Below, piece after piece: positions 22,813 through 60,725 of a stretch of DNA of 64,000 nt. The stretch is from the NCBI GenBank assembly GCA_948144175.1, contig CANXME010001999.1, positions 248,001 through 312,000 on the forward strand, written 5' to 3'. Source of the stretch: Closterium sp. NIES-65. Taxonomy: Eukaryota; Streptophyta; Zygnematophyceae; Desmidiales; Closteriaceae. The position numbers and the translations under genes were made by a program. The notes beneath the pieces are model-generated. The model did not search any database. It was not told where the DNA came from and saw only the letters and a program-made list of their open reading frames with translations. Numbering within the stretch: position 1 is the stretch's first letter; each line of letters starts with the position of its first letter.

Positions 22813-22937
22813 TGAGAAGAAACGAGGAATGAGAATGACTAAGGGAAACTTGGGTACAAGTACAAACCCTACAAAGATGTACCCCATATGTGCTACTCCA
22901 CTATAGCCTACAGTAGCTATGTCATATAAATCTGACA
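22813..22937 (-). repeat. 5' LTR of element C (125 bp)
   Basis: It matches 15603-15727 except at four positions and is followed on the minus strand by TGGTATCGAGC, an initiator-Met-like primer site. The flanking GTAAT repeats the bases at 15598-15602. Confidence 0.93.
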
Positions 22938-22942
22938 GTAAT

Positions 22943-25900: not shown

Positions 25901-26300
25901 GTAATGCGTCCAGTGACTTTTCTTGTCTAGGTGAAGGCTGCAGGTGTGGCATAAAGCTGATGGACCCGCGCTCGTACGGAGCAAAGGTAGGCTGTTGTTG
26001 TTGATTTCCTCGTGCGTATGATGAGCCGTCGAGACTCATAGGAGTTGCTCCGTTGTTGATGCTGTTGTGTGACTGCGCAGGTGCCGATTGCTGGTGTTGC
26101 TCGTAGAAGGACACGAAGGAGAAGAATTTCTCCATCATGCTCTGGTCGAAGTCTGCAGGTTGATTCGCAGGAGTCTCGGTGGATGTTGCCCTGGGTCTTG
26201 TTGCCGTACCCTCCTCTGTCTGTAGGCCAGAGGCAGGAGGTGGAGTAGGAGTAGTGCCCTGGGAGCCATTGGAGGAGCTCCTTTCCTTTTGTGTAGCCAT
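22943..26300 (-). pseudogene. Gag, protease and integrase part of element D
   Basis: This long open stretch starts at MATQKERSSSNGSQ (26300). An ATG inside the primer site at 26357 is in the same frame but is a less likely start. Gag has the UBN2 core with YISRCRELRDKLLRCGGSIS and a CCHC knuckle, CHICKTSGHPRTHC. The protease box is FLDSCCGQHMCSPG near 24830. A spacer rich in AAETTSAA units lies near 24220-24350. Integrase follows with CFTCPEADLPH, FQSDGGGEYTSQRF and GIAERMNRTLQNT. Element C interrupts the element just past the integrase. Confidence 0.88.
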
Positions 26301-26361
26301 GCCTGTTGATGTTGTCGGTATCTTGATAGAAGTTGAATTCTCCCTGACAGCTCTCATACCA

Positions 26362-26797
26362 TGTTGGGTTGAGAAAAGCCCTTAGGATCTTTGCAGGGGT
26401 GAACTCTGGGTAGGACTGATATAGTAGCGGAAGCGTTTTAATGAAGAGCTGTGAACCACCTTGCACTAGTATGTGAGGGCAAAGTAAGTTTATTAAGGCA
26501 AAGAGATACAGGATTATGTAAGAGTACAATGAAGAGATACAGTTGTAACTACTTTCCTGTTGCGGTTCGATACAGTGACGACTCTGGCGACTGCTCTGTA
26601 GCGAGTCAGTTGTGTGTCCTTGCTGTCGCGTTGTACTTGTCAGGCCAAAGGTCGCTGACCTTTGACTTTCGCGTAACCTCCAGCAGTTACTTCAACCTCC
26701 GAGGGTTGACTCGCTGGTGCCTCGATATGCTTCGCTTTGCTTGTGCCTTGGTGTTTCGACACGACAGAGGCGCTTAAGCTTGATTGTTTCCAACATG
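26362..26797 (-). repeat. 5' LTR of element D (436 bp)
   Basis: It pairs with 13385-13818. The primer site TGGTATGAGAGC follows it at 26361 going left. The bases TGGAC lie directly to its right (26798-26802), repeating 13380-13384. Confidence 0.92.
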
Positions 26798-27546: not shown

Positions 27547-27807
27547 TTCAACAGTTACGTAACCACTCGGAGTCGCACAGTTGGATTTCGCTGCAATAAG
27601 GGAATGTACCCCTTAGAGTACATGGCTAGTTATGTCATTTCGAATTCCCCTGTACACATATTTATATTCCTTGTACTGCACGTGTTTATTATCTCAAGCA
27701 TTTACATTCACTCTTCTATTGAGGTCAAGGGCCCACCACCACTAGACTAGAATTGTGCGAACTCTCCTGAGTAGATCCTAGGCCACGATCAACTTTTGAT
27801 CGTAACA
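27547..27807 (+). repeat. 5' LTR of element F, partial (261 bp)
   Basis: It matches the last 261 bp of the 3' LTR at 52296-52556 with about six mismatches, ends TCGTAACA, and is followed by the primer site TGGTATGAGAGCGAC. The beginning of this LTR is not seen. Confidence 0.9.
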
Positions 27808-36560: not shown

Positions 36561-36729
36561 AGGAGGACTAGTACCTGAGTGTTCCGCCTGACCCAGGCAT
36601 CCGCACGAGTGAGGCTGCCGCCCTAGGTGCTTGCGTGTCTGCTGCCCCAGGTACTGGTGAGGCTACTGCTCTAGGTGCGTGTGTGTCCGCCACCCCAGGT
36701 GCTACTGAGTCCACTGAGGCACTGCACAC

Positions 36730-39600
36730 CTTCACTCTAGACTCAGGCGCTTCGCGCTGTTTCTTTCGTGACCGCACTGCTCTTGAGCCTCTTGCTCGAC
36801 CAGTCGCTGTCTCGCTCGCTGACCCCTCTGGGGGTCCGGTCATTGCGACCTCCTCCACCCTCCTTCCTTGTCCTGCTGTCCCGTCGGGCACACTGTCAGG
36901 TCTCCACCTCCCCTCGTTCTCTACGAACTTGGTGGCGGGTTGTGCGCTTCAGGATGGGGGTGTTCACCAGTTCACCCCTGCCTACGAGCGTGTGACACAC
37001 TGCACGTGTGCTCGGACGGGCCGTCACCTGGCTACCTTCACTCGGCAGCCGGGGTTGGACCTGTACACACTGACCACTGAGTCCCCTCAGGTAGCGGCGT
37101 CTGCGTATGCGTCTGCGTTAGGTCAGCTCTCTGCCCCCTGCTCGTGTCGCTCTCTAGCGCACAAGACTGTCCTCTGGCACCACCGACTTGGTCACCCGTC
37201 AGTGCAGCGCCTTCGGGGCATGCACGCCCGGTACCTTGTCTCTGGTCTTCCTCGGGTACTCCCTCCCCTCCCACCCTCCCTTGCTCCTCCTTGTCTTCCC
37301 TGTGTCGAGGGGCGGCAGCGCGCTGCCCCTCACTCCTCCTCGTTCCCCCCGACGACTGCTCCTTTGCAGACGCTCCACATGGACGTGTGGGGCCCAGCCC
37401 GCGTCCGTGGTCAGGGCCAGGAGAGGTACTTCTTGATCGTCGTTGACGACTACTCGCGCTACACCACGGTCTTCCCCTTGCGCACCAAGGGTGAAGTCCC
37501 TGATGTTCTGATCCCTTGGATCAGCAGAGCACGTCTTCAGCTGCGAGAGCGTTTTCGCTCGGAGTTTCCTGTTCTGCGCTTGCACTCTGACAGAGGTGGC
37601 GAGTTCTCCTCCGACCTCTTGGCAGCCTACTGTGCCGAGCATGGCATTCGCCAGTCGTTCACGCTCCCGGCCTCTCCACAGCAGAATGGGGTTGCTGAGC
37701 GCCGCATTGGCTTGGTCATGGAGGTCGCTCGTACCTCCTTAGTCCACGCGGCTGCCCCCCACTTTCTGTGGCCGTTTGCGGTCCGGTACGCTGCGCATCA
37801 GCTCAACCTCTGGCCCCGTGTCTCCGCTCCGGAGACCTCGCCCACACTGCTGTGGACGGGGGAGGTTGGCGATGCGTCACGCTTCCGTGTCTGGGGATCC
37901 CGAGCTTTTGTTCGCGATTCGTCTGCGGACAAGCTCTCCTCCCGCACTGCTCCCTGTATCTTTCTTGGCTTTGTCCCGGATGCGTCTGGCTGGCAGTTTT
38001 ACCACCCCGCCTCGCACCGAGTCTTCCCCTCTCAGGACGTCACTTTTGACGAGTCCGTGCCCTTCTACCGCCTCTTCCCCTACCGCACTGCCCCGCTCCC
38101 TCCCCCGCCTCTCTTCCTCGCGCCAGTTGCTGCAGTGGTAGACCCCCTTCCCCCTCAGGGTGCCGCTCCCTCAGGTGTCTCTCAGGTAGACCCGGTTGAG
38201 CCTGCCGAGGTAGCTGTCGACTCGCGTCCTGCTGGAGGTGCTGAGCCAGAGCGTGCGGAGCCTGAGCGGGCGGAGCCTGGGGGTTCTGAGTCTAGGGGTG
38301 CTGATCCTGGGGGTGCTGAGCCTGGGGGTGCTGGGTTTGGGGGTACTGAGCCTGGCGTTGCTGAGTCTAGGGGTACTGCGCCTGGAGTTGCTGAGCCTGG
38401 GGGTGCTGAGCCTGGTGGTGTTGCAGTTGACTGTGAGGCGCCTGGAGGACCTCCCTCTTCGCAGCAGCTGTGTGAGTGGTACTCACGGTACTGCAGCCTC
38501 CGGCGAGGTGAGTCTCGGGCTCGTGGTACTGCTGGAGTTGGTACTCGTGCTTCCCCACCACGGCGGGAGCCGCCCTCTTCCCCTCAGCTTCGAGAGTGGT
38601 ACGCTCGGCACATCAGTCTCCGTAGTGGAGCTGCTGGTGCTGGGGTCCCCGGAGTTGACGCTGCTGCGAGTACTACGGACCCTGGTGCTGGAGGTGCTGC
38701 TGCTGCTGGCGGTGCTGCTGGAGGTGCTGCTGCTGCTGGCGGTGCTGCTGGAGGTGCTGCTAGTACTGAGGACCCGGGCGTTGGAGCTGCTGTGGGTGCT
38801 ACGGACCCTGGTGCTGGAGGTCCAGCTGCTGCTGGCGGTGCTGCTGGAGGTACTGCTGCTGCTGGCGGTGCTGCTGGAGGTGCTGCGGACCCTGGTGCTG
38901 GAGGTGCTGCTGCTTCTGGAGGTGCTGCTGCTGCCGCTGGTGTCTCTGCTGGTTCGAGAGCTGCTGCACGGCCACGACCGTACTTCGTTCCGCTCCTTCA
39001 GCAGGTTCTTGGTCAGCCTCCTCCTCCTTGTTCTCCTCTCGCCTTAGAGTGTTCGCCGTCTGTCCAGTCACAGCCACAGTTACCGCCTGCCTCCCCACTC
39101 CCTGTGCCTGCTCCTTACACTGGTCCAACTGACGGTCTTGCTGAGAGACGTGAGCCTGCGTCACGTCCTGTGTCACCTGCGTCTCGTCGAGCGTCGCCTG
39201 TTCGAGCTGCTACCACTGGTAGTCGTGTCCCGCGTGAGCGTCCTCCTGCTGTCCCAGGCACGCACCGGATGGCGCTTCGTCAGTCCACTGCTCCGCAGCG
39301 TGTTGCTCTCCCGTCGCCTCCTGCGTCCTCTCTTCCTGCTCTTGCTGACCCGGAGTCAGACTCCCTTCGCGCTGCCAGTCCTACTGTCACACGTCTCCTG
39401 GCTACGGTTGTCACTGACCCTTCCTTTGAGTCCGCTGCTGCGTCTGCCCTAGTCACTGAGCTTGTCGACTTTGCAGCTGCGTGTCGTCTAGACTACGCAG
39501 CGAGTCTTGTTGCTGAGTCTGAGTCTGCCTGTCCTCCGTCCGTCGGGGGTGAGTGTGCTCTTGGCACGGACGTCCTTGAGGACAGGCAGGAGGAGTTTGG
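36730..39600 (+). pseudogene. Protease, integrase and linker part of element I
   Basis: The protease box is HTFTLDSGASRCFFRDRTAL near 36740. A pre-integrase segment (LWHHRLGHPSVQRLRGMHAR) lies near 37180. Integrase core motifs are HMDVWGPARVRGQGQERYFL, RLHSDRGGEFSSDLL and NGVAERRIGLVMEVAR. The linker (38230-38990) has GAEPGGAE units and then a 30-bp Ala/Gly array at about 38690-38940. The normal pre-RT Ser/Pro-rich region follows. Confidence 0.88.
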
Positions 39601-39665
39601 TTGCCTTGTTTTGCCTTGACTGGTCTTGTGACCCCTAGGTCTCCCCCACTTTGCCTATGGGGGTG

Positions 39666-42429: not shown

Positions 42430-43860
42430 TCTCACTTTCACTCTTGACTCCGGGGCGTCTCGCTCCTTCTTTCGAGACCGCACCACACTCACGCCGCTTA
42501 GTCGGCCAGTGGCGGTCTCCCTGGCAGACCCCTCTGGGGGTCCTGTTCTGGCTCGCTACTCCACTGTCCTGCCGTGCCCTGCGGTCCCGTCTGGCGCCCT
42601 GTCCGGTCTCTACCTCCCCTCGTTCTCTACGAACTTGGTGGCGGGTGCTGACCTACAAGATGCAGGGGTTGACCAGTTCACCCCTGCGCGCCGACGGGTC
42701 ACCCACTGCACGGACGCAGACACGGGTCGACACCTGACCACGTTCACACGTGGGCCGGGGTAGAGCCTGTACACACTCACTGTTCCGTCTCCTCCTCCTG
42801 CGTCGGGTCAGGTGTTTGCTGCAGCGTCCAGGTCTGGTCCTGAGTCTGCCCCCTGCTCGTGTCGCCTCCTGTCCCACGAGACCCTCATGTGGCACCACAG
42901 GATGGGTCACCCCTCCCTGCCTCGTCTCCGGGGCATGGCCTCTCGCCTTCTTGTCTCTGGCCTTCCCAGGTCCCTCCCTCCCCTTCCTCCGGGGCCTGGC
43001 CCTCCCTGTGTCCCCTGTGTCGAGGGTCGCCTGCGGGCTACCCCTCACTCCTCCCCGTTTCTACCGACGGAGGCCCCGATGCAGACGCTTCACATGGACG
43101 TGTGGGGCCCAGCCCGCGTCCGTGGACAGGGTCACGAGCGCTACTTCCTGCTGGTGGTTGACGACTACTCGCGTTACACCGCAGTCTTCCCCTTGCGCAG
43201 CAAGGGTGAGGTCACTGAGGTGTTGATCGACTGGATCCGCGCAGCTCGTCTCCAGCTCAGGCGGAGCTTCGGCTCGGACTTTCCTGTTCTGCGTCTGCAT
43301 TCGGACAGAGGCGGAGAGTTCTCCTCCGGCCTTCTGCGAGCCTACTGTCGGGCACGAGGCATCCGCCAGACCTTCACGCTTCCGGACTCTCCACAGCAGA
43401 ATGGGATTGCTGAGCGCCGCATCGGCATTGTCATGGACGTCGCCCGTACGTCCATGGTGCATGCGGCTGCCCCCCATTTTCTGTGGCCGTTTGCGGTTCG
43501 GTACGCCGCGCATCAGATCAACCTTCAGCCCAGAGTCTCCCGACCGGAGACCTCCCCAGCTTTGCTGTGGACGGGGAAGGTTGGCGATGCGTCGGCGTTC
43601 CGTGTCTGGGGATCTCGGGCGTTTGTTCGCGACTTGTCTGCGGACAAGCTGTCCCCTCGTGCTGCTCCCTGTGTCTTCCTTGGCTTCCCCACAGACGCTC
43701 CCGGGTGGCAGTTTTACCACCCCTCCTCTCGTCGTGTTCTGTCCTCCCAGGACGTCACGTTCGACGAGTCAGTCCCCTTCTACCGCCTCTTCCCCTACCG
43801 CACTCCTTCCCTCCCCCCTCCGCCGGACTTCCTGGAGCCAGTTCCCCCCCCGGTAGACCC
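42430..43860 (+). pseudogene. Protease and integrase part of element H
   Basis: The protease box is FTLDSGASRSFFRDRTTLTP near 42440. The pre-integrase motif is MGHPSLPRLRGMASRLLVSG. Integrase core motifs are HMDVWGPARVRGQGHERYFL, RLHSDRGGEFSSGLLRAY and NGIAERRIGIVMDVAR. Confidence 0.88.
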
Positions 43861-43899
43861 CCTCCCCCCTCAGGTTCCTGCCCCCTCAGGTGTGTCCCA

Positions 43900-44600
43900 G
43901 GTAGACGCAGTTGACCCGGTCGAGGTTACTGGTGACTCTGGTGCTGCTGCGGGTGCTGAGCCTGGGGGTGCTGACTCTGGGGGTGCTGTGCGCGGGGGTG
44001 CCGAGCCTGGAGGTGCTGCTACTGGGGTTGCTGAGCCTGGGGGTGCTGGGCCTGGACGTGCTACTGCGGAGGGTGCTGAGCCTGGGGGTGCTGAGCCGGG
44101 GGGTACGGTGCCTGGAGCTGCTGAGCTAGGGGGTGCTGGGTCTGGGGTTGCTGGGTCGGGAGCTGCTAAGCCTGGGGGTACTGAGTCTGGAGCTGCTGAG
44201 CCTGGGGGTGCTACGTCTGGAGCTGCTGAGCCTGGGGTTTCTCCTGCTGCTGCGTCTCGCCGGGAGCCCCTCTCTCCACAGGAGCTGCGCGAGTGGTTTG
44301 CTCGCCGCTGGAGGCGTGCTGCTGGAGCTGGAGCTTCTTCGACCGTCGAGGGTGCTGGTGCTGCCGGTCCCGGAGCTGCTGGGCCTGCGGGTACTCCTGG
44401 AGCAGGAGCTCCTGAGGGTGTTGTTGCTGAGACTACTGCTGTCTGTCCCGGCGGTGGTTCTGCTGCTGGTGCTGCTGGAGGTCCTGCCGCTGGAGGTGTT
44501 GGTGGCGCTGGTGCTGTCGCTGAGGGTGCTGGTGCTGTCCCTGCTGAGTCTGGAGCTGCCGCGCGGCCTCGACCGTACTTCGTTCCGCTCCTGCAGCAGG
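43900..44600 (+). repeat. Linker minisatellite of element H
   Basis: A 15-bp unit near GCTGAGCCTGGGGGT is repeated over 43950-44250. It encodes GAEPGGAE-like repeats, followed by Gly/Ala-rich sequence up to the Ser/Pro-rich region before RT. Confidence 0.8.
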
Positions 44601-45239
44601 TTCTTGGTCTTTCTCCTCCGGTAGAGTGTTCACAGCCTGTCCAATCACAGTCACTACTGGAGCCTTCCTCTCCACTGCCTGCTCCCTCTCCTTACACTGG
44701 TCCTACTGGAGGTCTTGCTGAGCGTCGTGAGCCTCGTCCTGCGTCGCCTGTTCGTACTGCTCGCACTAGTGGTCGCGGTTCGCGTCAGCGTCCTCCTCCT
44801 GTCCCTGGCACACACCGGATGTCTCTGCGTCCGTCCACTGCTCCTCTGCGTGCCCCTTTGCCTTCTCCTCCTGAGTCCTCTCTTCTTGCGCTTGCCGACC
44901 CTGAGTCGGACTCTCTTTGTGCTGCCAGTCCTACTGTCACGCGTCTGCTTGCTACTGTCGTCACTGACCCCTCTTTTGAGTCCACTGCTGCGTCTGCTCT
45001 AGTCGCTGAGCTCGTTGACTTTGCTGCTCGCTGTCGTCTCGACTACGCTGCTAGTCTTGTTGCTGAGTCTGCGTCTGTCTGTCCTCCGTCCGTCGGGGGT
45101 GAGTGTGCTCTTGGCACGGACGTCCTAGAGGACAGGCAGGAGGAGTTACAGTGTCTAGCGGCTGCTTCACCTCATCTCGCGTCTGTACTGCTTGCCCCTG
45201 AGGGAGACCCGGATGCACTAGACATCCCGACTCCGCGTT

Positions 45240-46801
45240 CTTACGCGGAGGCCGTAGAGGGTCCCTACTCCTCTCAGTGGCAGGCAGCTATGGATGCAGA
45301 GATGGCTTCCTGGAAGTCCACAGGCACCTACGTTGACGCAGTTCCCCCTCCTGGGGCGAACATCGTCAGTGGCATGTGGATCTTCAGGGTGAAGCGGCCG
45401 CCGGGCTCTCCACCTGTCTTCAAGGCGCGGTACGTTGCTCGTGGCTTCAGTCAGCGGCAGGGAGTTGACTACTTTCAGACCTTCTCTCCCACCCCGAAGA
45501 TGACCACTCTTCGGGTGCTGCTGCACATAGCCGCTCAGCGCGACTACGAGCTTCACTCTCTCGACTTCAGCACTGCGTTCCTGCAGGGTAGCCTGCACGA
45601 GGAGATCTGGCTGCGCCGTCCACCTGGCTTCACTGGGACTTTCCCTCCTGGCACCCAGTGGAGCCTCCGACGGCCAGTCTACGGTCTCCGCCAGGCACCG
45701 CGTGAGTGGCACGACACACTGAGGACTACGCTTGCGGCTCTTGGGTTTGCTCCTTCTACTGCTGACCCGTCGCTGTTTCTGCGCACCGACACTTCTCTGC
45801 CGCCGTTCTACATCCTCGTGTACGTCGACGACTTGGTCTTTGCCACAGCGGACACTGCTGGACTCGCCTACGTGAAGTCCGAGCTGCTGAAGAGACACAC
45901 GTGCACAGACTTGGGTGAAGTGCGCAGCTACCTTGGCTTGCAGATCACTTGGGACAGAGCACGCCGCACCATTACCTTGACTCAGTCACACATGGTGTAG
46001 CAGGTCCTTCAGCGCTTCGGCTTCACGTACTCCTCGCCTCAGGCCACTCCTCTGTCTACTCGCCACTCGCTCTCAGCTCTGCCTTCGAATGAGTCCGTAG
46101 AGTCGAGTGGCCCGTACCCAGAGCTTGTTGGCTGCCTCATGTACCTGATGACCTGCACACGGCCTGACCTTGCATACCCTCTGAGCATTCTTGCACGCTA
46201 TGTTGCTCCTGGGAGACACCGACCAGAGCACATGGCTGCAGCGAAGAGGGTATTGCGCTACCTGTGCAGTACGTCAGGCATGGGGCTAGTGCTTGGAGGG
46301 CGGAGTCCAGTGGTCCTTACAGGGCACGCAGACGCTTCTTGGGCTGACGACCAGGCTACGCAGCGGTCGTCACAGGGTTACACCTTCAGTCTTGGTTCCG
46401 GCTCTGTCTCGTGGCGGGCTACTCGTTCGTCTTCGGTTCTCAGCTCTAGTTGTGAGGCTGAGATCTACGCCGGGGCCATGGCTACACAGGAGCTTCGCTG
46501 GCTCACCTACCTGCTGACTGACCTTGGAGAGCCGCCTCGTTCTCCTCCAGTGCTGTACGTAGACAACAAGGCCATGCTGGCCTTGTGTCGAGAGCAGCGT
46601 CTGGAGCACAGAACGAAGCACATTGCTCTTCGCTACTTCCTTGCTCGTGAGCTACAGCAGCGTGGAGAGTTGCGGCTTGCGTACGTGGCCTCTGAGGCCA
46701 ACACTGCTGATGTGTTCACCAAGGCACTCGCGCCTTGTGACCATCAGCGCTTCTGCACCCAGCTGGGTGTTGTGCCTGTCTTGCCTCACTTGCTCTCCTC
46801 T
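45240..46801 (+). pseudogene. RT and RNase H part of element H
   Basis: RT motifs are MDAEMASWKSTGTYVDAVPP, GMWIFRVKRPPGSPPVFKAR, DFSTAFLQGSLHEEIWLRRP and YILVYVDDLVFATADTAG. RNase H motifs are DASWADDQATQRSSQGYTF, SSCEAEIYAGAMATQELRW and VDNKAMLALCREQRLEHRTK. The tail is YVASEANTADVFTKALAP. It is the best-kept glycine-family RT/RNase H here. Confidence 0.9.
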
Positions 46802-47023: not shown

Positions 47024-47161
47024 TGTTCGAACATATCTATAGCTTATACTATTGTGTAGGCTGTAGTGGGGTATCCCATAGGGGGTACAACCCAGTTAGG
47101 GTTTCATATTTGTACTGACTTCTTTCATAGTCCACACCATTCCTGTTCTACAATTCTCACA
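47024..47161 (+). repeat. 3' LTR of element H (138 bp)
   Basis: It starts TGTTCGAACATATC, ends TTCTCACA, and contains TAGGCTGTAGTGGGGTA and GGGGGTACAA. The purine tract hairpin precedes it and the TACGC duplication follows it. Confidence 0.94.
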
Positions 47162-48640
47162 TACGCAGACAACAGGGAAGAGCAACGACCACGGCGCCTC
47201 TACTGCAAGATCTGCAGAAATTTCGGGCACCTGGCGGATCGATGTAAGCATCGATCTCGCCCTCGCCAGACCAATCCGAGCACTTGGTCCGGCCGACAAG
47301 ACGCAAGAAACGACACGCGTCCCGCCCAGGGGTCTCAACCCCCACCGCGCAACCTGAATCCAACAACTCAGCAGCAGGAGCAGCCACCACAAGCTGCCCC
47401 CGTCCGCAATGTCATGGGGAGCATGACCATGACGAGCGGCTCTCGTCGCCCGCGTGCACGCTCACTCTCACCTGAGCCGGCGCCCGACCCAATCGAGGCA
47501 TCTCCGAACAACAATCCATTCAACACGCATCACGACTACAACGATGACGACAACCAGGACTGGAATCTACCAGTCCAGCTGCTTGAGAGCCCTCCGCACG
47601 TACCTGACATGCGGCCGGCACCAATCGACTGGATCGCGCGCGAACGGTTTTTGAAGGTGGACACTCCACACATCGTCACTCCGCGGCTGGCTCTGCTCGC
47701 GCGAAACGACAACAGGCGCTACAACAACTGGTACCTGGACAGCTGCTGTGGGCAGCACATGGTGGGCTCCGAGCGTTACATATCCAACGCCGTCCCCACT
47801 CCCGTCGTCACTTACGTCACAGTGGCGAACAACACACGGCTGCGCGCAAGCGCGCAATGTATCGTGGTGCTCAAGGCACGAGGGAGCCGAACGCACATCA
47901 CACTTAACGACGTGTTGATTGTGCAGAACCTGCGCTTTAATTTACTCTCGGCGGCGCAACTCCTGGATTGCGGAGTCATCCTCAGCACCAACCCCGAGAC
48001 GCGCGACATCCTGCTCCACTTCACGATGCCGAACAAGAAGTGCAAGCAGATCGGACGGGCGCGCGCCGAGAACGGCGTATACGTTCTCGACTTCGACATT
48101 CCCTACTGCAACGGCGATTCGCAGGAATTGATTGACCTCGTCCCCCTGCGCTTCGAACACATTCATCGCCGCGATTGGAAGCACCCTGATGGACGCCCCT
48201 GGGTGCCACACTACTCACACCCCTGCGAGCTCGCGCTGCACGACCCTGATCCCGACGGCGTCTGCAGGAACTGCCACACACCAACGTCTTTGACGAGCGC
48301 AATCGCCAGCCGCGGCCTTGCCGCCATTCGCGAAACAGAGCGAGACGCACCGCCTGAAGAGGGTCTCTCCCAACTGGAGTTGGAAACAGCTACACGGGTC
48401 GTATTCGGCACACCAGAACTCCCTCTTCCCGGACCCGCATCCCAGCATCTCCAAGGAATTCTCCGCGGTGTTAGTGTCGGCACCTTCGACGCGCATGGGA
48501 ATCCCCGGCCCTGCACCGAACGAAAGGCGGCAGAGATCTACTCTCACCGGCGCGATTCCAAGAAACGGCTCTCGCCCACGGAAGAAGAGGCATTGGCGCA
48601 ACAAGAAGCCGAAGAGCCTCGCCGAGGTACGCGGAACGCT
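47162..48640 (+). pseudogene. Gag end and protease part of element F
   Basis: After H the gag of F resumes with a CCHC knuckle, CKICRNFGHLADRC, near 47200 and a Pro/Gln-rich tail. The protease box is WYLDSCCGQHMVGSERY near 47730, within YNNWYLDSCCGQHM, and the normal copia protease context (VANNTRLRA, LNDVLIVQNLRFNLLS) follows. Confidence 0.87.
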
Positions 48641-48671
48641 CGCCTGGGAGCAGGACGAGGAAAGCGCCTCC

Positions 48672-48830
48672 AATGAAGGGGGGTGGGGGAGCGCCGGCGG
48701 ATGGGGAACGAGCGACACTAGTGGCTGGGGCGTCGCAACCGGCGGATGGGGCGCAGCAACAGGCGCATACATCGGCGGATGGGGCGCCGCACAAGGCGGC
48801 GAGACGAGCGGCTGGGGAGCTTTCCGCGAG
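48672..48830 (+). other. GW/WG-rich segment of element F
   Basis: In the frame that leads into the pre-integrase part there are six GWG motifs in about 53 residues, among them EGGWGSAGGWGT, SGWGVATGGWGA, IGGWGAAQGG and SGWGAF. A further IDWGSEP lies near 48975. The background is rich in Gly, Ala, Ser, Thr and Glu. Such sparse-Trp, Gly-flanked repeats are the hallmark of Argonaute-binding GW/WG platforms in known proteins. That role here is inference. Confidence 0.6.
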
Positions 48831-49229
48831 GATCAAAGGGGGGAAGAGGAAGAAGAACCTGCGCATGCCGAGGTCGGACCTCCTGTTGTTCCTCTCGGAC
48901 GACCTCCGTGCCGCCCTGCGTTAGGACCACCGCCGCCTGACATCCCTTCAGGTAGTGACCCCTGGGACACCATTGACTGGGGAAGTGAACCACTCACCCC
49001 GCGACGCACTGTCTATGGACCTGCCCCTGAACCACGCGAACCGGCGTTCATACTTGGCACGATCCCCGGAACCAACATCCCCTACTCCATCATCCGCGAC
49101 AGAGAATTTCTCGCCCTCATGCTAACAACGGCAAACGAGGAAGAAGAAGAGAATGAGGGAACAGCGCCTTCACCTGCACCGGCACCTGACGAAGACCCCG
49201 CAGCCGCACTGGAGCGCTACATGCGCACA

Positions 49230-50130
49230 TCTGGATTCCGCGCCGACGACGCCATCTGGCATCAGCGCCTAGGTCACCCTTCGCGCGTGACCCTGAAGAA
49301 TTGCATCGAAGCCGGCGTCTTTGCACCTGGCGCGCTGTTGCGCCCTGACGACTCCGAAGTGAGAGGATGGACTCACCCGCGCAGCTGCACTGTCTGCCCC
49401 GAAGCTGCGCTGAGTCACCAGCCCTTCCCCCTACTCGAGCCAGGAACCAATCGCTACGCCAAGCTTGAGAAGGTTTACAGTGACTTTCACAACGTAGGAC
49501 ACTGCGGCATCAACGACGAACTCTACACACTCACCTTCGTCGACGCCGGAACGCGCCACGTGTGGGTCGTTAACGTGGAAGCGCGTAGCAGAGCCTACGA
49601 ATCATTCCGTCTGTGGCTGGCGCACGCGCAGCGGCAATCTTGGGAGAAATTAAAGATTTAGCAGTCCGATGGTGCGGCGGAGTTCAGGAGCAAGGAACTG
49701 CAGGATTACCTCACGCAAAAGGGGATCGAGCATCACATCTCCCTCCCCTACGCGCACCAGCAGCAGGGCATAGCGGAGCGCACGAATCGCACCCTCATGA
49801 CGAAGGTACGGGCGCTAATGCGGCAGGCAAAGCTCCCGCCGATCTACGGGACCTACGCGATGCACCACGCCGTGCGGGTGCACAACCTGCTGTCAACCAC
49901 CGCAATCACCAGCAACTCCTCGCCGCACGTGATGTGGACGGGAAGAAAGGGGGACACCTCCATGCTCCGCGTCTGGGGCTGCATGGTTCAATACCGACCG
50001 CCAACATCAACCATCGGGAAGTTCAAAAGCCGCGCGCACTGGGGAATCCATCTCGGTATCAGCCACGAACACAGGGCGTGGATCATCCTGGATCTCCTAA
50101 GCCAAAAAAATCAAGAATGCGCGCGATGTC
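49230..50130 (+). pseudogene. Integrase part of element F
   Basis: The pre-integrase motif is IWHQRLGHPSRVTLKNCIEA. The zinc-binding CTVCPEAALSHQPF, the integrase block YSDFHNVGHCGINDELYTLTFVDA in part, and the QQQGIAERTNRTL motif follow. It is copia order and second-family sequence. Confidence 0.85.
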
Positions 50131-50569
50131 ATCTTCTACGAGCGACTGTTTCTGCAACAATTTCGTGACGACGAGCAGACGAATGCAAACCGCGTCTACG
50201 CCAATGAGGGCCACACCTACGCCTCACCTGAGGACGAAGCAGCAGCAGCAATTCTGGAGCAAGATCCCAGAGGCGAGTTCACAAGGGGCGATCGCCGCGA
50301 CGACGACGACGACGACGATTATTCAGGTGAAGGAGGAACAGACGCAACAGGAGGAGGCGCAGCAGGAGGAAGCAGAAGCGGCGCAGACACAGCACCGCCA
50401 GCACCGCCTGAACCAGAAAGCGATGATGACGACGTGCAGGAAGTCGTCACTCAACATCACCATGACAGCACTGTCACCGGTCTCCAGCTACTTGGACTAC
50501 ACGCTGCCATCTCCACTGCTCCGCGCATCATCGAACCAAAGAACCCACGACAAGCTCTCACAGGCACAC

Positions 50570-52107
50570 ACAGCAAGGAGTGGCGCGAAGCAATGGATGC
50601 GGAAATCCGAGCACTCGAGTTGCGCGACACCTGGGTGCTCGTCGACCGTGCAGCAGTAAAGGGGAGAAGGATTCTCTCCGGCAAATGGGTCTTCCGAGTG
50701 AAGACAGGAGCCGACGGAAGGATTGAGCGATTCAAGGCACGCTGGGTGGTGCGCGGCTACGATCAAAGGCACGAGATTGATTTTGACTAGACATTCGCAC
50801 CGGTCAGCCGTCACACGTCCGTCAGAATTCTCCTCGCCAACGCAGCCGCACGACACCTACCACTCCGGCAGATCGATGCGAAGAATGCGTTCCTGTACGC
50901 ATTAGTGGACGCCGTGATCTACGTGGAACAGCCACACACTTACGGCAACGGAGACCCACGCGTCTGTCAGCTACGCAAGTCCCTCTATGGGATCAAACAG
51001 GCACCGAGACTCTGGCAGCAGTACCTGCACAACATACTGCTTGAAATCGGGTTCAAGCAGTTGCCTCACGATCCTGGAATGTATAGCCGCGATTTCCGCG
51101 GCGAATACATCCTCCTCACGGTCTACGTCGACGACCTTCTCTATACAGGCTCAAGCAACGAACTGCTCGAGCAATTTGAGAGAAGCCTCGCAGGGCGCGT
51201 CGACATCACCTGCAATCATGACGTGAAGCAGTTTCTCGGACTCAACATCACCTACTCGCCGGAAGCCATTCATCTCTCAGCAGCGAAGTATGCGGAGGAG
51301 CTTAGCAAGCGCTTCAACATTGCGCCTGCACCACTCTCCACCCCTTACCGCACTCCAGGACCCAACCACAAGCCTGACAACAAAGCCCTGTCCCCTGCTG
51401 GGCTTCACACTTACCAGCAGCAGTTGGGATGCCTGCTTTTCGCATCTGTTACCTGCAGGCCCGACCTCTCCTACATTGCGAGCCAGTTGGCTCAGTACTC
51501 ACGCAAACCAACGGCTGAGAATCTCTCAGATCTTCAGCGAGCCCTTCAATTCTTCATCTCCACACCCAATGTCGGGCTCAGTTATTCCACCATCCCAACC
51601 ACATCCTTCAGCCTCGTCGGCTACGTGGATGCCGATCACGCCGCTGACCCTAACAATCGACGGTCCAGGACAGGGTTCCTCTTCCGCCTCGAGCCCAGTG
51701 GCCCCATCTCCCGGAACTCTCAGAAGCAGGAGTTGGTTGCCCTGTCATCGGCGGAAGCTGAATTTATCGCAGCAACAGCAGCTGTTCGCGAAGGTCTCTA
51801 CCTTCAGGAACTGCTGCAGGAAGCCAAAATTCCGGCCTCAACGAACTTTCGCCTGCACTGCGACAATCAGAGCGCGATCAGGATCGCGAACAAACCTGGT
51901 TTCGTCAACCGCACCAAGCACATCGCACTGCGGTACTTCTTCGTCAAGGACGAAGTTGACGAAGGCAAAGTTGACCTGACATACTGCCCAACGGGTGACA
52001 TGGCAGCAGACTTCCTCACGAAGAGACTGCCGCGTCAGCAGTACCAGCACTGCTCCGAACTCAGCGGGGTAGTCAAGCGGATCAATGCTCGCTACGGCCA
52101 GGAGTGA
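50570..52107 (+). pseudogene. RT and RNase H part of element F
   Basis: RT motifs are MDAEIRALELRDTWVLVDRA, KARWVVRGYDQRHEIDFD and TVYVDDLLYTGSSNELLEQF near 51120. RNase H motifs are GYVDADHAADPNNRRSRTGF, LSSAEAEFIAATAAVREGLY and LHCDNQSAIRIANKPGFVNR. The tail is YCPTGDMAADFLTKRLPR. The stretch from 50905 to the end is long and open. Confidence 0.88.
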
Positions 52108-52113
52108 AGGGGG

Positions 52114-52556
52114 TGTTACGAATAGTAGTTAATGAAAAACATTGTTGCGCACTCCTCACCGTAGTAAGGCCGAAGCACGCACTATCGAGAGTGAAGACGA
52201 AAAGCCAGAAGAAAGGCGAAGGGACAGACGGTTACGAGGAGCATCTGGACAGTCGGGCAGACAGCATCAGGCAGCAGCAGTGGCGAGGATTCTGCCCGAA
52301 CAGTTACGTAACCACTCGGAGTCGCACAGTTGGATTTCGCTGCAATAAGGGAATGTACCCCTTAGAGTACATGGCTAGTTAGGTCGTTTCGAATTCCCCT
52401 GTACTCGTATTTATATTCCTTGTACTGCACGTGTTTATTATCTCAAGCATTTACATTCACTCTACTATTGAGGTCAAGGGCCCACCACCACTAGACTAGA
52501 ATTGTGCGAACTTTCCTGAGTAGATCCTAGGCCACGATCAACTTTTGATCGTAACA
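52114..52556 (+). repeat. 3' LTR of element F (443 bp)
   Basis: It runs TGTTACGAATAG to TCGTAACA, with the purine tract AAGGGGG directly upstream. Its last 261 bp match 27547-27807. Confidence 0.92.
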
Positions 52557-53247: not shown

Positions 53248-53994
53248 CTAATCAGTCATTGGCACATCCACTGCAGGCTGCTCCGATCCAGATCCAGAGA
53301 TGAACGCTTTCCGCGCCTCCGATGCTGTCTTGGCAACCTCGCCGGCTGTACGAGCCGTAGTGATGATCTTATTCTGCAAATCCTTGTCTGTCCCCACTCT
53401 CACGACCGTGTTTGTGACGGTGCCGAATCCCTGCTTGACACCATTCCCAATCTTCTGTCCGGCGGCGTTGACCTTGTTCCTGGCGTCATTCGCAGCGGCG
53501 TTGACCTTGTTCCGGGCGTTATTCGCAGCGGCGTTGACCTTGTTCCGGGCGTTATTCGAAGCGGCGTTGACCTTGTTCCGGGCGTTATTCGCAGCGGCGT
53601 TGACCTTGTTCCTCACGTTATTCGCGGCGTTGTTGACCTTGTTTTTGACGTCATTCGCGGTGTTCTTGACCTTGTCCCCGAAGTTCTTGAACTTGTTCTT
53701 GATATCATTCCAGAACAGCTCTCTCCGTACATCATCCATGCCATCGTCCATCATAGCCCCCATTTCCTCCTCCTCTCCGCCGCCGCTCGCATAGAACCCG
53801 CCCATGTCCAGGTTCGTTGAATCTGCAGACGAATCAGCCGCCGCCGCCGCTGCGATCAGGACGCGAACGGAACTCGCGTCGATCTCGTCGGCACTGGGAT
53901 GGGCCAGCTTTCGCAGCGAGGACGCCGCGTGGAGTGAAGACAAGCATGCGAAAGTTAGGGCGAGGACGAAAGCGACGCGAAGAAGAGCACCCAT
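53248..53994 (-). CDS. Putative secreted hendecad-repeat protein (LEA-like), host gene
   Basis: This is a 248-residue intronless reading frame, the only convincing host gene here. Residues 1-24 form a signal peptide: MGALLR, a hydrophobic core VAFVLALTFACL, then a HAAS cleavage-type end. Residues 72-88 are acidic (GEEEE, DDGMDD). Residues about 108-184 are built of 11-residue units such as KVNAAANNARN, with six good units from 119 and weaker ones on each side. The tail ends VDVPMTD. An 11-residue period with regularly placed Lys, Val, Ala and Asn suggests a long amphipathic helix, as in group 3 LEA proteins and some lipid-binding proteins. I do not recognise the exact family, and stress, membrane or wall roles are only guesses. 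A TATA-like box lies upstream. Confidence 0.75.
   Translation of the reverse strand: MGALLRVAFVLALTFACLSSLHAASSLRKLAHPSADEIDASSVRVLIAAAAAADSSADSTNLDMGGFYASGGGEEEEMGAMMDDGMDDVRRELFWNDIKNKFKNFGDKVKNTANDVKNKVNNAANNVRNKVNAAANNARNKVNAASNNARNKVNAAANNARNKVNAAANDARNKVNAAGQKIGNGVKQGFGTVTNTVVRVGTDKDLQNKIITTARTAGEVAKTASEARKAFISGSGSEQPAVDVPMTD
53443..53673 (-). repeat. 33-bp tandem repeat coding the hendecads
   Basis: Plus-strand units read like GCGGCGTTGACCTTGTTCC and recur every 33 bp. Central units are nearly identical in DNA, outer ones diverged, which points to recent growth from the middle of the array. Confidence 0.85.
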
Positions 53995-54071
53995 GGCTGC
54001 GTGGAAAGTTCGAAAACCGGGACAGTCGATTACAGCTTGTAATTTTCAGATCTGAATTCTTGAGGATGTGC

Positions 54072-55893: not shown

Positions 55894-58800
55894 CTACGCG
55901 AGTGCGTGTATATCGCGGAATCCCCGGCTCCTCACGTACACTTGCAGGGCAGGGTGGTTTTTGATGTTGCTCAGGGGCACCCAGCTGTCTTCAGTTGGCG
56001 TGCGGTCCTTCCAGCGAACGAGGAATTCAATCCTCCTGATTCCCGTGGGGTGGCGGATCCGATGGCTCAGAATTTTTTCGGGCTCGATGATCGGCTCTGA
56101 TGCAGGGCGAGTCATTGATTGTGGCCGGTGACGCGGCAGTTGACTTGTGGTCGGGATGTATGGGCGAAGTAGGCTGACGTGGAACGAAGGGCTGATGTAC
56201 CAGTCGGTTGGCAACAGTAGGTGCGCGGTGACGGGTGTGATCATGTGACTGATTTGGAATGGTCCACAGTAGCGCGGTCGTAATTTTGGTACGTCGGGCA
56301 GTCGTAGATTTTGCGTGTCAAGCAGTACGTAATCTCCAGATTGGTATGTGACAGGACGGCGGTGGCGATCAGCGTTGCGCTTAGCGATGACGTTGGCCTT
56401 TTTTATTGCTTCGGCAGCTCTGGCGCGGGCAGCTTGCAGGATTTCGGCGAATTGTTGTGCACGTGGCGTTGGGTTGTCCGGACTCGGCGTCATGGGCACT
56501 GTGGGGTTTTGCCCATAGTTCAGGTAGAACGGGGACTGCTGCGTCGTGGCTGATGTGGCGTTGTTGTACGCGAACTCGATCAGCGGCAGCTGCTGCTCCC
56601 AGGTCGTAGGGTCGTCGCACGTGGCACGAATCAACTGCTCCATCGTCTGATTCGTCCGCTCCGTTTGGCCGTCGGTCTCGGGGTGGTACGACGAACTGAA
56701 CTGTAGCCTGGTCCCGAACTGCTCCCAGAGGTTCTTCCAGAAGTTGCTGGTAAACTTCGTGTCCCTGTCGCTGATGATTGCTGCTGGTATCCCGTGCAGG
56801 CGAACAACGGCTGCGATGAACAGGCGAGCGGTCTCTTCGGCTGAGATCGACTTCTTGCACGCAGCGAAGTGTGCCATCTTCGTCAACCTATCCACGACGA
56901 CCATCACCGCGTCGTTACCCCCAGGGTTCGAAGGTAACCCTGTGACGAAGTCCATGGTTACTTGCTGCCAGGCGCGTTCGGGCGGTGGGATCGGCTGCAA
57001 TTGACCCGCCTTCCGCTTCCTTGAACTCTTCATCACCTGACACGTCGGGCACGAGCTCACGTGCTGCTGTACGTCGGTCAACAGCTCCGGCCAGTAATAA
57101 TACCGCTGCAGTTGCTGTCGCGTTTTTTCTACCCCGAAATGTCCCGAGGTAATCCCGTCGTGTGCCTCCTGCAGTAGCAGCTCCCTCAGGAGTGAGTACG
57201 CGGGTACCCAAATGCGGTTGGTGCCTGTTTTTACGTAATAAACTCCTTTTGCTTCTGCCAGTTGCTGTGAGTTTCCGGTCGTGAAGAATGGGTCGGTGCG
57301 GTATCCGTGGGTGAATAGGCCAGTTAAAAGCGGGTTGGTCTGGGCGAGTAGGATGGCGTGGAGTTGGGCGGTGGGGCGGGTGAGAGCGTCGGCGATGTTG
57401 GATGCGCCTTTTTTGTACGTAACGGTGTAGTGAAAATTGGACTCAAGATAGTCCAACCAGCGAATCTGTCGTGGGTTGAGATTCGGTTGGGCGCGAAGGT
57501 ACTGTAGCGAGCGGTGGTCTGTCCGTACTGTCACGTCGGCGCCAGTCAAGTAACATCGCCAAACTTTGAACGCGTGCACGATCGCTAGCATCTCGCGGTC
57601 GTGTATCGGGTAGTTACGTTCGGGCGGGTGTAGTTTGCGGGACTCGTACGCGATTGGCTGGAGGCCGTTCCCGAAGTCCTGCAACAGTACTGCTCCCACA
57701 GCGATGTCACTTGCGTCGGTGATGAGCTCGAACGGACGGTGGGGATCTGCAATGCGAAGGACGGGCGGGGAGCACATAATATTTTTGAGGGCCAAGAAGG
57801 CAGCTTGCTCTTTCTCCCCCCACGTGTACTCAACCCCCTTCCTCAACAGGTCGGTCAACGGGGCAGTCAGCTCCGCCAAGTCGGGGACGAACCGGCGCAC
57901 GTAGTTGACGAACCCCAGGAAACTCTGCAACTCGGTCAAGTTGGTCGGCGCGTGCCAAGCCTGAATCGTCGCAATTTTCTTCGGGTCTATTTCCACTCCT
58001 GCAGCTGAAATAACATGTCCCAAAAACTCCAGGCGGTCCTGTAGAAACTCACACTTAGATGCTTTGGTCAGTAGGCGGTTTTCACTCAGGATTTTAAAAA
58101 CTGCTTCGATGTCTTGTAAGTGCTGTGCTCTGTCAGGGCTATAAATCAGTATGTCGTCCAGATAAACGATGACGCACTTATCTAAAAGTGGGCGGAATGC
58201 TTCGTTCATGGTCATTTGGAAAGTGGCGGGGGCGTTGGTCAGTCCGAATGGCATGACGGTGTATTCGAAGGATCCGTAGCGTGTTCGGAATGCGGTTTTA
58301 GGGCAGTCGGGTGGGTTGACGCGGATTTGGTGGTAGCCTCCTCGGAGGTCGATTTTTGAGAAAACCCGGGCTGTGCGCAGTTGGTCGATCAGTTCGTCGG
58401 CTCGTGGGATGGGGTAACGGGATTTAATGGTAACCCTGTTCAGTGCCCTGTAGTCGATACACATGCGAAAACCCCCGTCTTTTTTCGGTGTGAACAGTAT
58501 GGGTGCGGCGAAGGGCGACGAACTAGGGCGAATGAATTCCTTTTCGAGCAGGTAATCGAGCTGCTTCCTCAGTTCGTCTAGTTCGGGTTGGGTCAGTCGG
58601 AATTGTCGCTGTACTGTTGGCTGTGCCCCCGGTTCCAGTTCTATCCTGTGATCGTGCGGTCGCTGAGGTGGCAGTCCCGTCGGCAGGTCGTCCGGGAAAA
58701 TGTCACTGTACTGTTTTAACAGTGCCGCCAGGTCACTCGGTACGTCGGTCAGCAGTTTCTGTAAATCGCCCCCCTTGTCTGCTGCCTCGGCTTCCCGAAT

Positions 58801-59322
58801 GTCAACCGCGTACACGTCAGCTCCGGCCGCTACAGCGCGTTTCATCGTGATCGCATTGACACGCACCGACGAAGACTCAGGCGAGCCCCAGCGAGGTAAG
58901 GCGATGTTGTTACCGTTCACTCGCACGGTGCAGTCACCCGTCGTCCAGTCAATTCGCGGATTGTGTCGTCGCAGCCAATCACGCCCGAGTAAAATGTCGG
59001 TTCCGTCGAGGGTCGTTGCGAGCATTTCCTGACTAAACGTGAAGTTACCCCCGCATCGAATCCGAACTCGGTCTACGCGTTCCCGTATTGCCAGCGGCGT
59101 GCCATCTACCAGTCGTGCGTCGATCTCAGGTAAGCATCGGTCCAGTGGCAGTCGCAGTTTTCGTGCTGTAGCAGTGTTAATGAGGCTGTGACTGGCTCCC
59201 CCATCTACGAAGATCTTAACTAAGTCCGTCCCAATTTTCCCACTGAGCAGTATAGGGCTATCTACCGTGGTACCCTCCTTATTCGGCCGGGTGTGGTCGA
59301 TTGCGTGAACCGGCACAATCAC
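55894..59322 (-). CDS. Pol polyprotein of chromovirus J
   Basis: 1142 residues. The aspartic protease has VDGGASHS at 39-46. RT spans about 240-430, with CIDYRALNRVTIKSRYPIPR, FSKIDLRGGYHQIRV and the VIVYLDDILIYS box (YLDD at 387-390). RNase H is at about 530-650 (ITDASDIAVGAVLLQDF, then ALTRPTAQ). The integrase zinc domain (GHFGVEKTRQQLQRYYYWPE, CPTCQ) is followed by the catalytic core with MDFVTGLPSN, ISDRDTKFTSNFW and HPETDGQTERTNQTMEQ. The final 65 residues are a chromodomain (ILSHRIRHPTG, EFLVRWKDRTPTEDSWVP), which defines chromoviruses and may direct integration to marked chromatin. The true start of translation probably comes from recoding out of gag rather than the Met at 59322. Confidence 0.95.
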   Translation of the reverse strand: MIVPVHAIDHTRPNKEGTTVDSPILLSGKIGTDLVKIFVDGGASHSLINTATARKLRLPLDRCLPEIDARLVDGTPLAIRERVDRVRIRCGGNFTFSQEMLATTLDGTDILLGRDWLRRHNPRIDWTTGDCTVRVNGNNIALPRWGSPESSSVRVNAITMKRAVAAGADVYAVDIREAEAADKGGDLQKLLTDVPSDLAALLKQYSDIFPDDLPTGLPPQRPHDHRIELEPGAQPTVQRQFRLTQPELDELRKQLDYLLEKEFIRPSSSPFAAPILFTPKKDGGFRMCIDYRALNRVTIKSRYPIPRADELIDQLRTARVFSKIDLRGGYHQIRVNPPDCPKTAFRTRYGSFEYTVMPFGLTNAPATFQMTMNEAFRPLLDKCVIVYLDDILIYSPDRAQHLQDIEAVFKILSENRLLTKASKCEFLQDRLEFLGHVISAAGVEIDPKKIATIQAWHAPTNLTELQSFLGFVNYVRRFVPDLAELTAPLTDLLRKGVEYTWGEKEQAAFLALKNIMCSPPVLRIADPHRPFELITDASDIAVGAVLLQDFGNGLQPIAYESRKLHPPERNYPIHDREMLAIVHAFKVWRCYLTGADVTVRTDHRSLQYLRAQPNLNPRQIRWLDYLESNFHYTVTYKKGASNIADALTRPTAQLHAILLAQTNPLLTGLFTHGYRTDPFFTTGNSQQLAEAKGVYYVKTGTNRIWVPAYSLLRELLLQEAHDGITSGHFGVEKTRQQLQRYYYWPELLTDVQQHVSSCPTCQVMKSSRKRKAGQLQPIPPPERAWQQVTMDFVTGLPSNPGGNDAVMVVVDRLTKMAHFAACKKSISAEETARLFIAAVVRLHGIPAAIISDRDTKFTSNFWKNLWEQFGTRLQFSSSYHPETDGQTERTNQTMEQLIRATCDDPTTWEQQLPLIEFAYNNATSATTQQSPFYLNYGQNPTVPMTPSPDNPTPRAQQFAEILQAARARAAEAIKKANVIAKRNADRHRRPVTYQSGDYVLLDTQNLRLPDVPKLRPRYCGPFQISHMITPVTAHLLLPTDWYISPSFHVSLLRPYIPTTSQLPRHRPQSMTRPASEPIIEPEKILSHRIRHPTGIRRIEFLVRWKDRTPTEDSWVPLSNIKNHPALQVYVRSRGFRDIHALA

Positions 59323-59381
59323 TCGGTGAGGGTCGGTTGGGTCGGGCGAGCGGCGTGACCTGTCAGTAGAGGGCCCGTCTG

Positions 59382-60542
59382 CTACTGACTTCCAGCGTTT
59401 CCCTGCTGCTTGGTCTGTGTCTGCTGCTCAGCTTCCCCCTTTCCCTTAGCGTTTTCCGGGCATTCGCTCTTGCGATGTCCCGGCCGATTGCACGCAAAGC
59501 AGCGCCCTTTGAACGGTGCGGCAGCGGCATTTGCGGCGACGGCGCGTATCGTGGCGCTTTCGTTCGTCCCACGAGGCCGATGTCCCCAGTTGTTGTTTCC
59601 GTAGGACCCCGGTCTCGGTCGGCGAAAGAAGTCGAGCTTCTCCGCCATAGCGAGAATTTCCTGAAATTCGGTGACGCCGCGAAGCTGGATTTCCTGAGCG
59701 ATGTCCTGCTTCAGGCCGCCGATGTAGCGGTCGATGCGTTCGCTCTCATGCATGTAGCCCACCTGCTCGCATAGCGCCAGAAATCCGCTCGTATAATCCT
59801 GGACGGAACCGAGTTGGCGCCAAGTGCGGAGCTTCTGTCGCGCCGAGATCGAGGCCGCGATTGGCTCAAATCGAGCGCGCAGACCTGCGCACCACGCGTC
59901 CCACGTGCGATACTGGGGCACCTCCACGAAATATGACGGCGCCCAGGGTCCGGTTTGTCCTTCCCGTGTCGGTAGTGTCGCGTAGTCGGTCGGCTTCGTG
60001 ACGATGACGCGCCACCAGTCCATGGCGGGTCCTCGCAGCAACGACACGGCGTATCGAATCTTCGCCGAGTCCTCCGAGACGTAGTTGGCGTCGAAGAAGA
60101 CATTCATTGTGAACAACCACGCCTGGACGGTAGGACCACCCCGTTGACTCGGGTCAAAGCATGGCGGGCGCTGCGGCTTCAGCGGCATCGGTGACGGCAG
60201 TCCCGAATCGTGGGTTGGTGCCGAAATCGTGACGCGAGGCTGACTTGGGGCCGCAGGCGTCGCTCTGGGGTGTGTCGTGCCGTGGTCGTCGTCTCCGTCG
60301 GGGCGGACGACGCCATCACTGGCCGCGCTCGCGGGTTGCCCCACACTCCCGTGTTGTGATGTTGAGGGTGCGGGTTGAATCGGAGTGCCAGGTGCTTGAG
60401 ATTGTGCTCTCATGAGGTCATTTTGCAGTGATGAGCGTTCTGCCGTTAATGCCGCGATTTCCTCGGAGCTTTCGTGCAGTTGTCGCATCAGCTCGTTCAA
60501 ACGCTCCTGCGTGAGAGTGGTGACGTCGATATTTTCGGCCAT
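59382..60542 (-). CDS. Gag of chromovirus J
   Basis: 386 residues. The N-terminal part holds a short helical segment (LNELMRQLHESSEEIAALTA) and a disordered Pro/Ser/Gln stretch. The middle carries the Ty3/gypsy gag (retrotrans_gag) core with PAMDWWRVI and WDAWCAGLRARFEPIAASIS. Near residue 345 there is a CCHC zinc knuckle, CFACNRPGHRKSEC, followed by a Lys/Glu/Gln-rich tail. It forms the particle and binds the RNA. Frame and length are normal. Confidence 0.93.
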   Translation of the reverse strand: MAENIDVTTLTQERLNELMRQLHESSEEIAALTAERSSLQNDLMRAQSQAPGTPIQPAPSTSQHGSVGQPASAASDGVVRPDGDDDHGTTHPRATPAAPSQPRVTISAPTHDSGLPSPMPLKPQRPPCFDPSQRGGPTVQAWLFTMNVFFDANYVSEDSAKIRYAVSLLRGPAMDWWRVIVTKPTDYATLPTREGQTGPWAPSYFVEVPQYRTWDAWCAGLRARFEPIAASISARQKLRTWRQLGSVQDYTSGFLALCEQVGYMHESERIDRYIGGLKQDIAQEIQLRGVTEFQEILAMAEKLDFFRRPRPGSYGNNNWGHRPRGTNESATIRAVAANAAAAPFKGRCFACNRPGHRKSECPENAKGKGEAEQQTQTKQQGNAGSQ

Positions 60543-60725
60543 GGCGAAGGGCGTCGGCTCGTCTTAGTCTAGGCGCAGTCGTGGCTGCACGCGTTTACGA
60601 GAGAACGCGAGGACAGCGGCTCCTAGGGGCTAAGGTGCGTGAGTCCCTTCGAATGAAAAATCAAAAGTTGATTTCCTGGTGTGCGGAGATGCGCGGTCCG
60701 AAAGAAAGGGGCTCTGATAACCAAG
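60543..60725 (-). promoter_or_regulatory. Primer site and leader of element J
   Basis: The leader between 5' LTR and gag. The primer site TGGTTATCAGAGCCCC begins about two bases after the LTR and resembles the 3' end of a Met-type tRNA with one extra base. Confidence 0.75.

Follow-up and report, generated by a model that had tools for sequence, protein, structure and literature searches.

Clustered GW/WG motifs in the protease-integrase linker of a Closterium copia clade: a possible Argonaute-hook-like decoy

A clade of copia retrotransposons in the alga Closterium carries GW/WG motifs at the same place of the polyprotein, the protease-integrase linker, in four lineages (fam1, P0023, fam2, and fam4). 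Our preferred reading, to which we give a probability of roughly 0.4, is that the linker of this clade would be a probably disordered GW/WG platform under protein-level selection, acting as a decoy that resembles an Argonaute (AGO) hook. The motifs were noticed in element F of the window (i.e., the whole 64,000-nucleotide stretch of Closterium sp. NIES-65 analyzed here), yet the feature is not confined to this element, as relatives carry it too, among them the more divergent P0023, fam2, and fam4. The parts of F are, in window coordinates:

47060-48676 (+): stop-to-stop frame with the gag end, the protease and the first part of the protease-integrase linker (Pol_BBD E 1e-13, residues 224-305)
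47204-47245 (+): gag zinc knuckle CKICRNFGHLADRC, by eye from the frame
47729-47974 (+): Pol_BBD (protease-like beta barrel), containing LDSCCGQHM at 47735-47761
48294-49661 (+): stop-to-stop frame with the GW block, the pre-integrase part and the integrase start (in-frame stop 49659-49661)
48672-48830 (+): GW block with six GWG (TGG codons 48684, 48702, 48726, 48747, 48780, and 48813)
48954-48989 (+): downstream SDPWDTIDWGSE with a seventh WG
49257-49442 (+): pre-integrase region, WHQRLGHP ... CTVC, 3' of the linker, by eye; start of the tree segment
49938-50108 (+): integrase C-terminal SH3-like domain (SH3_retrovirus E 1.9e-9)
50101-50628 (+): integrase-RT linker, low-complexity and Gly-containing, with no GW/WG; internal control
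50626-51327 (+): reverse transcriptase (RVT_2), with a stop inside at 50788-50790

The Pfam matches of F follow the order Pol_BBD, SH3_retrovirus, RVT_2, i.e., the pol order of Ty1/copia elements; its pre-integrase region, integrase core and RNase H were identified by eye from the frames, and neither the integrase core nor the frame 48294-49661 had a Pfam match. F is a broken copy. As its protease frame (47060-48676) differs from the GW frame, it shifts frame directly upstream of the GW block, with a break at ca. 48,610-48,640 (by comparison with P0002) and another near 50,100, and stops interrupt the integrase core (49659-49661) and the reverse transcriptase (50788-50790). Its left end looks truncated, as 47029-47162 also matches sites beyond the element. 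A 258-base repeat (97.7% identity) found near the sister element described below (27550-27807) and just right of F (52299-52556) is a candidate LTR or shared insertion. The usual copia protease motif is LDS/T-G-A; the unusual LDSCCGQHM is widespread across the clade, given its 28 occurrences and five single variants in a motif scan of the 208 proteins collected.

The six GWG within 53 residues of F that had been reported from the letters alone are there (48672-48830 (+), NEGGWGSAGGWGTSDTSGWGVATGGWGAATGAYIGGWGAAQGGETSGWGAFRE), in a frame that does run on into the pre-integrase region. All six Trp have Gly on both sides and are spaced by 6, 8, 7, 11, and 11 residues, three of the five adjacent spacings thus being below 10. 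The seventh WG announced downstream likewise proved real: SDPWDTIDWGSE holds two further linker Trp (TGG 48963 and 48978), of which the second is the WG, and in fam1, the family of F, these two columns are W in 20/21 and 18/20 cells. When the block was shuffled 200,000 times six GWG arose in a single trial, and among the 646 stop-to-stop frames of at least 53 residues in the window the next best had one GWG per 53 residues; the shuffle figure is only descriptive, as the segment was selected for its motifs, and the relatives weigh more. A PDB sequence search with the 53-residue block gave a single match, an ESAT-6-like protein (E 0.33), which we took as chance.

The first protein search (query 48651-49658) returned 62 matches, all from Closterium. 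GWG is present in 30 of them (including P0023 and P0043, which belong to other lineages), 24 of these having at least three. Of the 32 matches with no GWG, 25 show none of the linker landmarks sought; the other seven are P0006, P0009, and P0014, apparently in another frame, P0042, P0046, and P0047, from which the block is missing, and P0013, with a start downstream. In P0008, P0044, and P0054 the protease domain and the GW block lie within one gene model (in P0008 together with the integrase core), albeit these models may include spurious introns. Insertions and deletions make the number of units vary among fam1 copies, which mostly retain the Trp. A single scan of viral contigs with P0006 found no relative.

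Alignment of the remote matches P0043 and P0023 led to fam2 (11 rows, 4 of them partial), whose linker motifs, i.e., GW, PWG, GWG, GWG, YWA, and SWG, stand in differing contexts and form no tandem repeat. Their Trp are spaced by 10, 16, 11, 25, and 7 residues in P0064 and by 10, 17, 8, 25, and 7 in P0043, and five W adjoin G in both P0064 and P0066. Seven matches of the second search (P0074-P0078, P0084, and P0087) were excluded, as they probably match P0023 through its unusual N-terminus; P0067, P0068, and P0073 start after or near the linker end, and P0080-P0083 and P0086 were left out. Residues 1-100 of P0023 differ from the N-termini of the other relatives, and it is probably to this part that the second-search matches with no alignment to P0043 correspond, e.g., P0074 and P0076 of other Closterium strains. 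The lineage of P0023 consists of this one sequence, whose motifs are AWG and GWG.

The third search took the sister element at 22920-26381 (-) as its query; 120 of its 371 matches were listed, and the listed ones are all from Closterium. A linker could be extracted from 65 of these 120, of which 10 had at least two GW/WG, 2 had one and 53 had none. Those 10, together with P0199 and P0206 from a separate motif scan, make up fam4, which comprises all 12 listed third-search matches at 41-45% identity. Its linker resembles GWGDPTNMPTDDGVWGADEPDETTWGE, a GWG-xWG-TWG series with Trp 13 and 10 residues apart (P0186 and P0202); the motifs are not tandem repeats, and all 12 rows keep two or all three WG (P0195, with one lost, is down to 2). 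At least three clustered GW/WG Trp are thus found in F (6), in P0064 and P0066 of fam2 (5 each) and in fam4 (3, P0195 having 2), and only 2 in P0023.

Conservation was scored as the fraction of cells equal to the column majority at Trp columns, Gly columns and columns other than W or G, gaps being uncounted. In the 25 fam1 rows chosen for at least two GWG (27 were aligned, of which P0004 and P0060 were dropped; P0010 and P0011 did not qualify) the counts were 124/131 at Trp, 388/455 at Gly, and 469/572 at other columns, with a Fisher p (W versus others) of 0.00015 that, like those that follow, is descriptive only, as the rows are related to each other. With no choice by GWG count, the 28 rows (every GWG-bearing fam1 match plus the window, only P0060 of 29 being dropped) gave 130/142, 412/492, and 496/619 (p = 0.0009), the 26 gap cells at Trp columns, i.e., lost units, not being counted. 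The corresponding values were 52/56, 137/171, and 364/476 for fam2 (p = 0.003) and 35/36, 58/60, and 317/408 for fam4 (p = 0.002). A wider-block test gave W 191/212 in fam1 (permutation p = 0.04) and p = 0.007 in fam2. Replacements seen at Trp columns were R, I, T, P, M, L, S, A, C, and E, some perhaps alignment errors, and never F or Y.

These figures need a correction, as the sequences of the relatives come from gene models, which may bypass stops via introns and omit copies with Trp-to-stop changes, so that Trp conservation is inflated. For the codon TGG, 2 of the 9 single changes lead to a stop, which with a threefold excess of transitions amounts to up to ca. 40% of events. Pooled over fam1 (unselected), fam2, and fam4, 17/234 Trp cells are changed, versus 326/1503 at residues that are neither Trp nor Gly; correcting for 40% hidden stops raises the Trp value from 7.3% to ca. 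12%, which is still below 22% (arithmetic on gene models). On these gene-model sequences, the Trp excess outlasts the correction for hidden stops. The comparison proposed in the original prediction, whether Trp is kept above the neighboring linker in other copies, therefore came out positive in fam1, fam2, and fam4 gene models, and two of the observations named there as fatal were not made: other copies do not lack the Trp, most being kept in fam1 (130/142 unselected cells), and the motif is no mere decayed simple repeat, given the non-tandem contexts of GW/WG in fam2 and fam4.

W next to G is also more frequent than in shuffles of the linkers themselves (p = 0.0014 for one fam1 protein, 0.003 and 0.03 for two of fam2, 0.016 and 0.020 for two of fam4). 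It is not above linker shuffles in P0023, with 2 W adjoining G (p = 0.17), nor in P0089, a protein of the sister family famC. The integrase-RT linker had no GW/WG in any of the six sequences measured (F, P0187, P0206, P0067, P0089, and P0096, the first four from GW-bearing families), and Trp is rare overall in these linkers; from a seventh, P0090, the linker could not be excised. The residues flanking the motifs are mostly G, S, T, A, E, D, and P. AlphaFold pLDDT is 31-35 over the GWG of P0002 and 26-35 over the WG of P0188, a weak sign of disorder, as both models are poor overall (mean pLDDT only 43 and 39); in these poor models (17 and 18 rows) the motif stretches have no helix of at least 4 residues and no strand. 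Trp spacings of at least 10, i.e., within reach of two pockets, are found in fam4 (13 and 10) and in F (11 twice between neighboring Trp, and more between Trp further apart).

The sister family famC is represented in the window by the element at 22920-26381 (-), an open 1154-residue copia frame with gag, protease, integrase and SH3. It falls into the same integrase-tree clade as F and shares with it the protease-integrase order and the SCCGQHM protease motif, but its protease-integrase linker consists of Thr/Ser/Ala repeats with no GW/WG cluster; such repeats stand at the position of the F linker both here and at about 10246-10360 (+). Among the third-search matches listed famC is the commonest family, the query itself being famC. 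The integrase tree used 29 of 34 chosen rows (P0003, P0007, P0066, P0112, and P0134, having no anchor, were left out) and supports fam2 (100/99), fam4 (100/100), famC (97/100), fam1 (92/90), and P0023 plus fam1 (95/99), whereas the grouping of famC with fam4 is weak (84/51). We preferred it to the first tree (27 rows, 131 columns, long outgroup), which placed famC between fam2 and fam1. Within the clade, GW versus no GW is a single change of state on the tree (outgroup rows being unscored for GW), which would most simply be a loss in famC. If the outgroup is devoid of GW, a gain before this loss is also required, and separate gains in the lineages are conceivable as well.

What the conserved linker binds is the point on which the two leading explanations part. 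A selected GW/WG linker with a partner other than AGO, e.g., a sticker in particles or condensates, a contact between polyprotein domains, a host cofactor of the integrase or an FG-like aid to nuclear entry, is nearly as likely as an AGO decoy, both staying short of even odds. All four lineages have the motifs in the protease-integrase linker, conserved and with no predicted structure, and conserved linker Trp would suit other binding roles just as well, none of the measurements being specific to AGO. However, Gly beside the Trp, at least three motifs and the 13/10 spacing of fam4 agree with the description of an AGO hook, and generic stickers might accept Phe or Tyr, which never occur in the Trp columns. 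Far less room is left, in our estimation, for an AGO hook that serves self-restraint or the host, with AGO recruited to the element's own transcript or particle and copy number kept tolerable: tethering of AGO is the action reported for the NRPE1 hook (excerpts of PMC10991848), but such a trait would be difficult to maintain by selection on the element, and we regard it as very unlikely.

Explanations that dispense with a binding partner fare worse against the alignments. Low-complexity drift, in which a G-rich minisatellite in a free linker is by chance read as GWG, could account for the insertion and deletion of units in fam1, for a weak 21-base tandem array (1.9 copies, 48726-48765) inside the block of F and for the different repeat at the same site in famC. 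Yet the motifs of fam2 and fam4 are non-tandem, the Gly codons flanking the six Trp of F are of three kinds (GGG, GGA, and GGC), three families show Trp conserved above its neighbors, no GW/WG occurs in those integrase-RT linkers that were measured, Gly-containing as they are, and we consider drift improbable. Selection on the nucleic acid, in which G runs (TGGGG) would serve as a signal or structure in the RNA and the protein motif would be a by-product, draws on the genetic code, by which each GWG necessarily gives TGGGG in the DNA (as seen in F). This is the least probable of the explanations weighed here, since the Gly codon 5' of Trp is not GGG in 5 of the 6 cases in F, and the motifs of fam2 and fam4 are isolated and varied in context.

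An AGO-binding decoy is favored by the clustering of GW/WG, the small or polar flanks, the presence of at least three motifs, the Trp spacing of ca. 10 in fam4, the lack of predicted structure (in poor models), the hook proteins of streptophyte algae and the viral precedent. In the portions of PMC10991848 available, at least three motifs plus a Wsearch plant-matrix score of 6 or more serve as hook criterion and AGO-hook proteins are reported from streptophyte algae; the part of PMC9262622 consulted places the Trp of TNRC6 ten or more residues apart. Against the hook count the spacings below 10 in F, the lack of motifs in famC and the view, in sections of a 2025 survey (PMC12477606), that plant AGO10 probably has one of its three Trp pockets blocked. 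The original prediction of an Argonaute hook is partly supported: it gains from the retained Trp, the non-tandem motifs and the excess of Trp conservation over neighboring residues, and loses the part of its hypervariable-site idea that concerned two further elements, D and E, if these are the two directly left of F.

As for how such a decoy might work, we postulate that the spaced Trp side chains would fit into Trp pockets of a host Argonaute, in its PIWI domain, and that AGO could thus be occupied by the polyprotein or by a processed product bearing the linker. Occupied AGO would be withdrawn, through competition, from host hook proteins (of the type of SPT6L, NRPE1, and NERD), which would weaken the small-RNA silencing directed at the element, in the way that the three WG/GW motifs of P1 from sweet potato mild mottle virus (SPMMV) act for a plant virus. 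Both the step from a conserved linker to binding of AGO and the further step to protection of the element are our inference. The GW block of F would then be the relic of a platform in a broken copy, and in famC the platform would have been lost or replaced by Thr/Ser/Ala repeats. That this copia clade of zygnematophyte algae inherited an ancestral AGO hook, used it against host small-RNA silencing, repeatedly rebuilt it (as tandem GWG in fam1, as dispersed motifs in fam2 and as a minimal set of three WG in fam4) and lost it in famC is a fuller scenario that we hold to be rather unlikely.

The closest analogs are the plant AGO hooks of NRPE1, SPT5L, SPT6L, and NERD, which according to the available excerpts of PMC10991848 are likewise disordered, variable repeats with conserved Trp, mostly as GW/WG; the same excerpts report that basal streptophyte algae have the SPT6L hook and that Mesotaenium, a zygnematophyte, has NERD. 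These are host proteins, however, whereas the carrier in Closterium is a retrotransposon polyprotein and its AGO contact is putative. SPMMV P1 is, by contrast, a parasite protein, and in the part of PMC2904775 at hand it blocks AGO1 with three WG/GW, the number also found in fam4, has Ala, Ser, Glu, Asn, and Asp around its motifs and can do with two of the three Trp. It differs in being an RNA-virus protein whose function was established by mutation and pull-down, while fam4 is known from sequence alone. The AGO-binding domain of animal GW182/TNRC6 is similar in having several Trp at least 10 residues apart (PMC9262622, same portion), though no sequence kinship with this animal protein is claimed. 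Among the matches listed from the open-licence PMC literature there was no WG/GW hook in an LTR retrotransposon polyprotein, which is not proof of absence; PMC3520747 and PMC9780303, in the passages retrieved, concern the host protein NERD.

Should the AGO-hook reading be true, these elements would be a direct case of transposon anti-silencing in the algal relatives of land plants, with the hook kept over deep divergence. AGO-hook mimicry is already known from at least one plant virus, and a retrotransposon polyprotein as carrier would extend it.

The spacer had been taken for a possible hypervariable site on the strength of other low-complexity spacers said to occupy the same place in D and E. 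If these are the two elements directly left of F (frames 36575-39616 and 42767-45997), this could not be confirmed, as their Gly/Ala/Pro/Glu-rich repeats lie 3' of the integrase SH3 (by eye), i.e., elsewhere; the idea retains the support of famC with its Thr/Ser/Ala repeats at the site. To the right of F, 55894-60563 (-) holds a gypsy-like element with a 1177-residue pol frame and a 393-residue gag frame, both uninterrupted (identity by eye), and between the two a frame at 53248-54045 (-), with a signal-peptide-like start and several 11-residue repeats of the NNARNKVNAAA type, is possibly a host gene (by eye).
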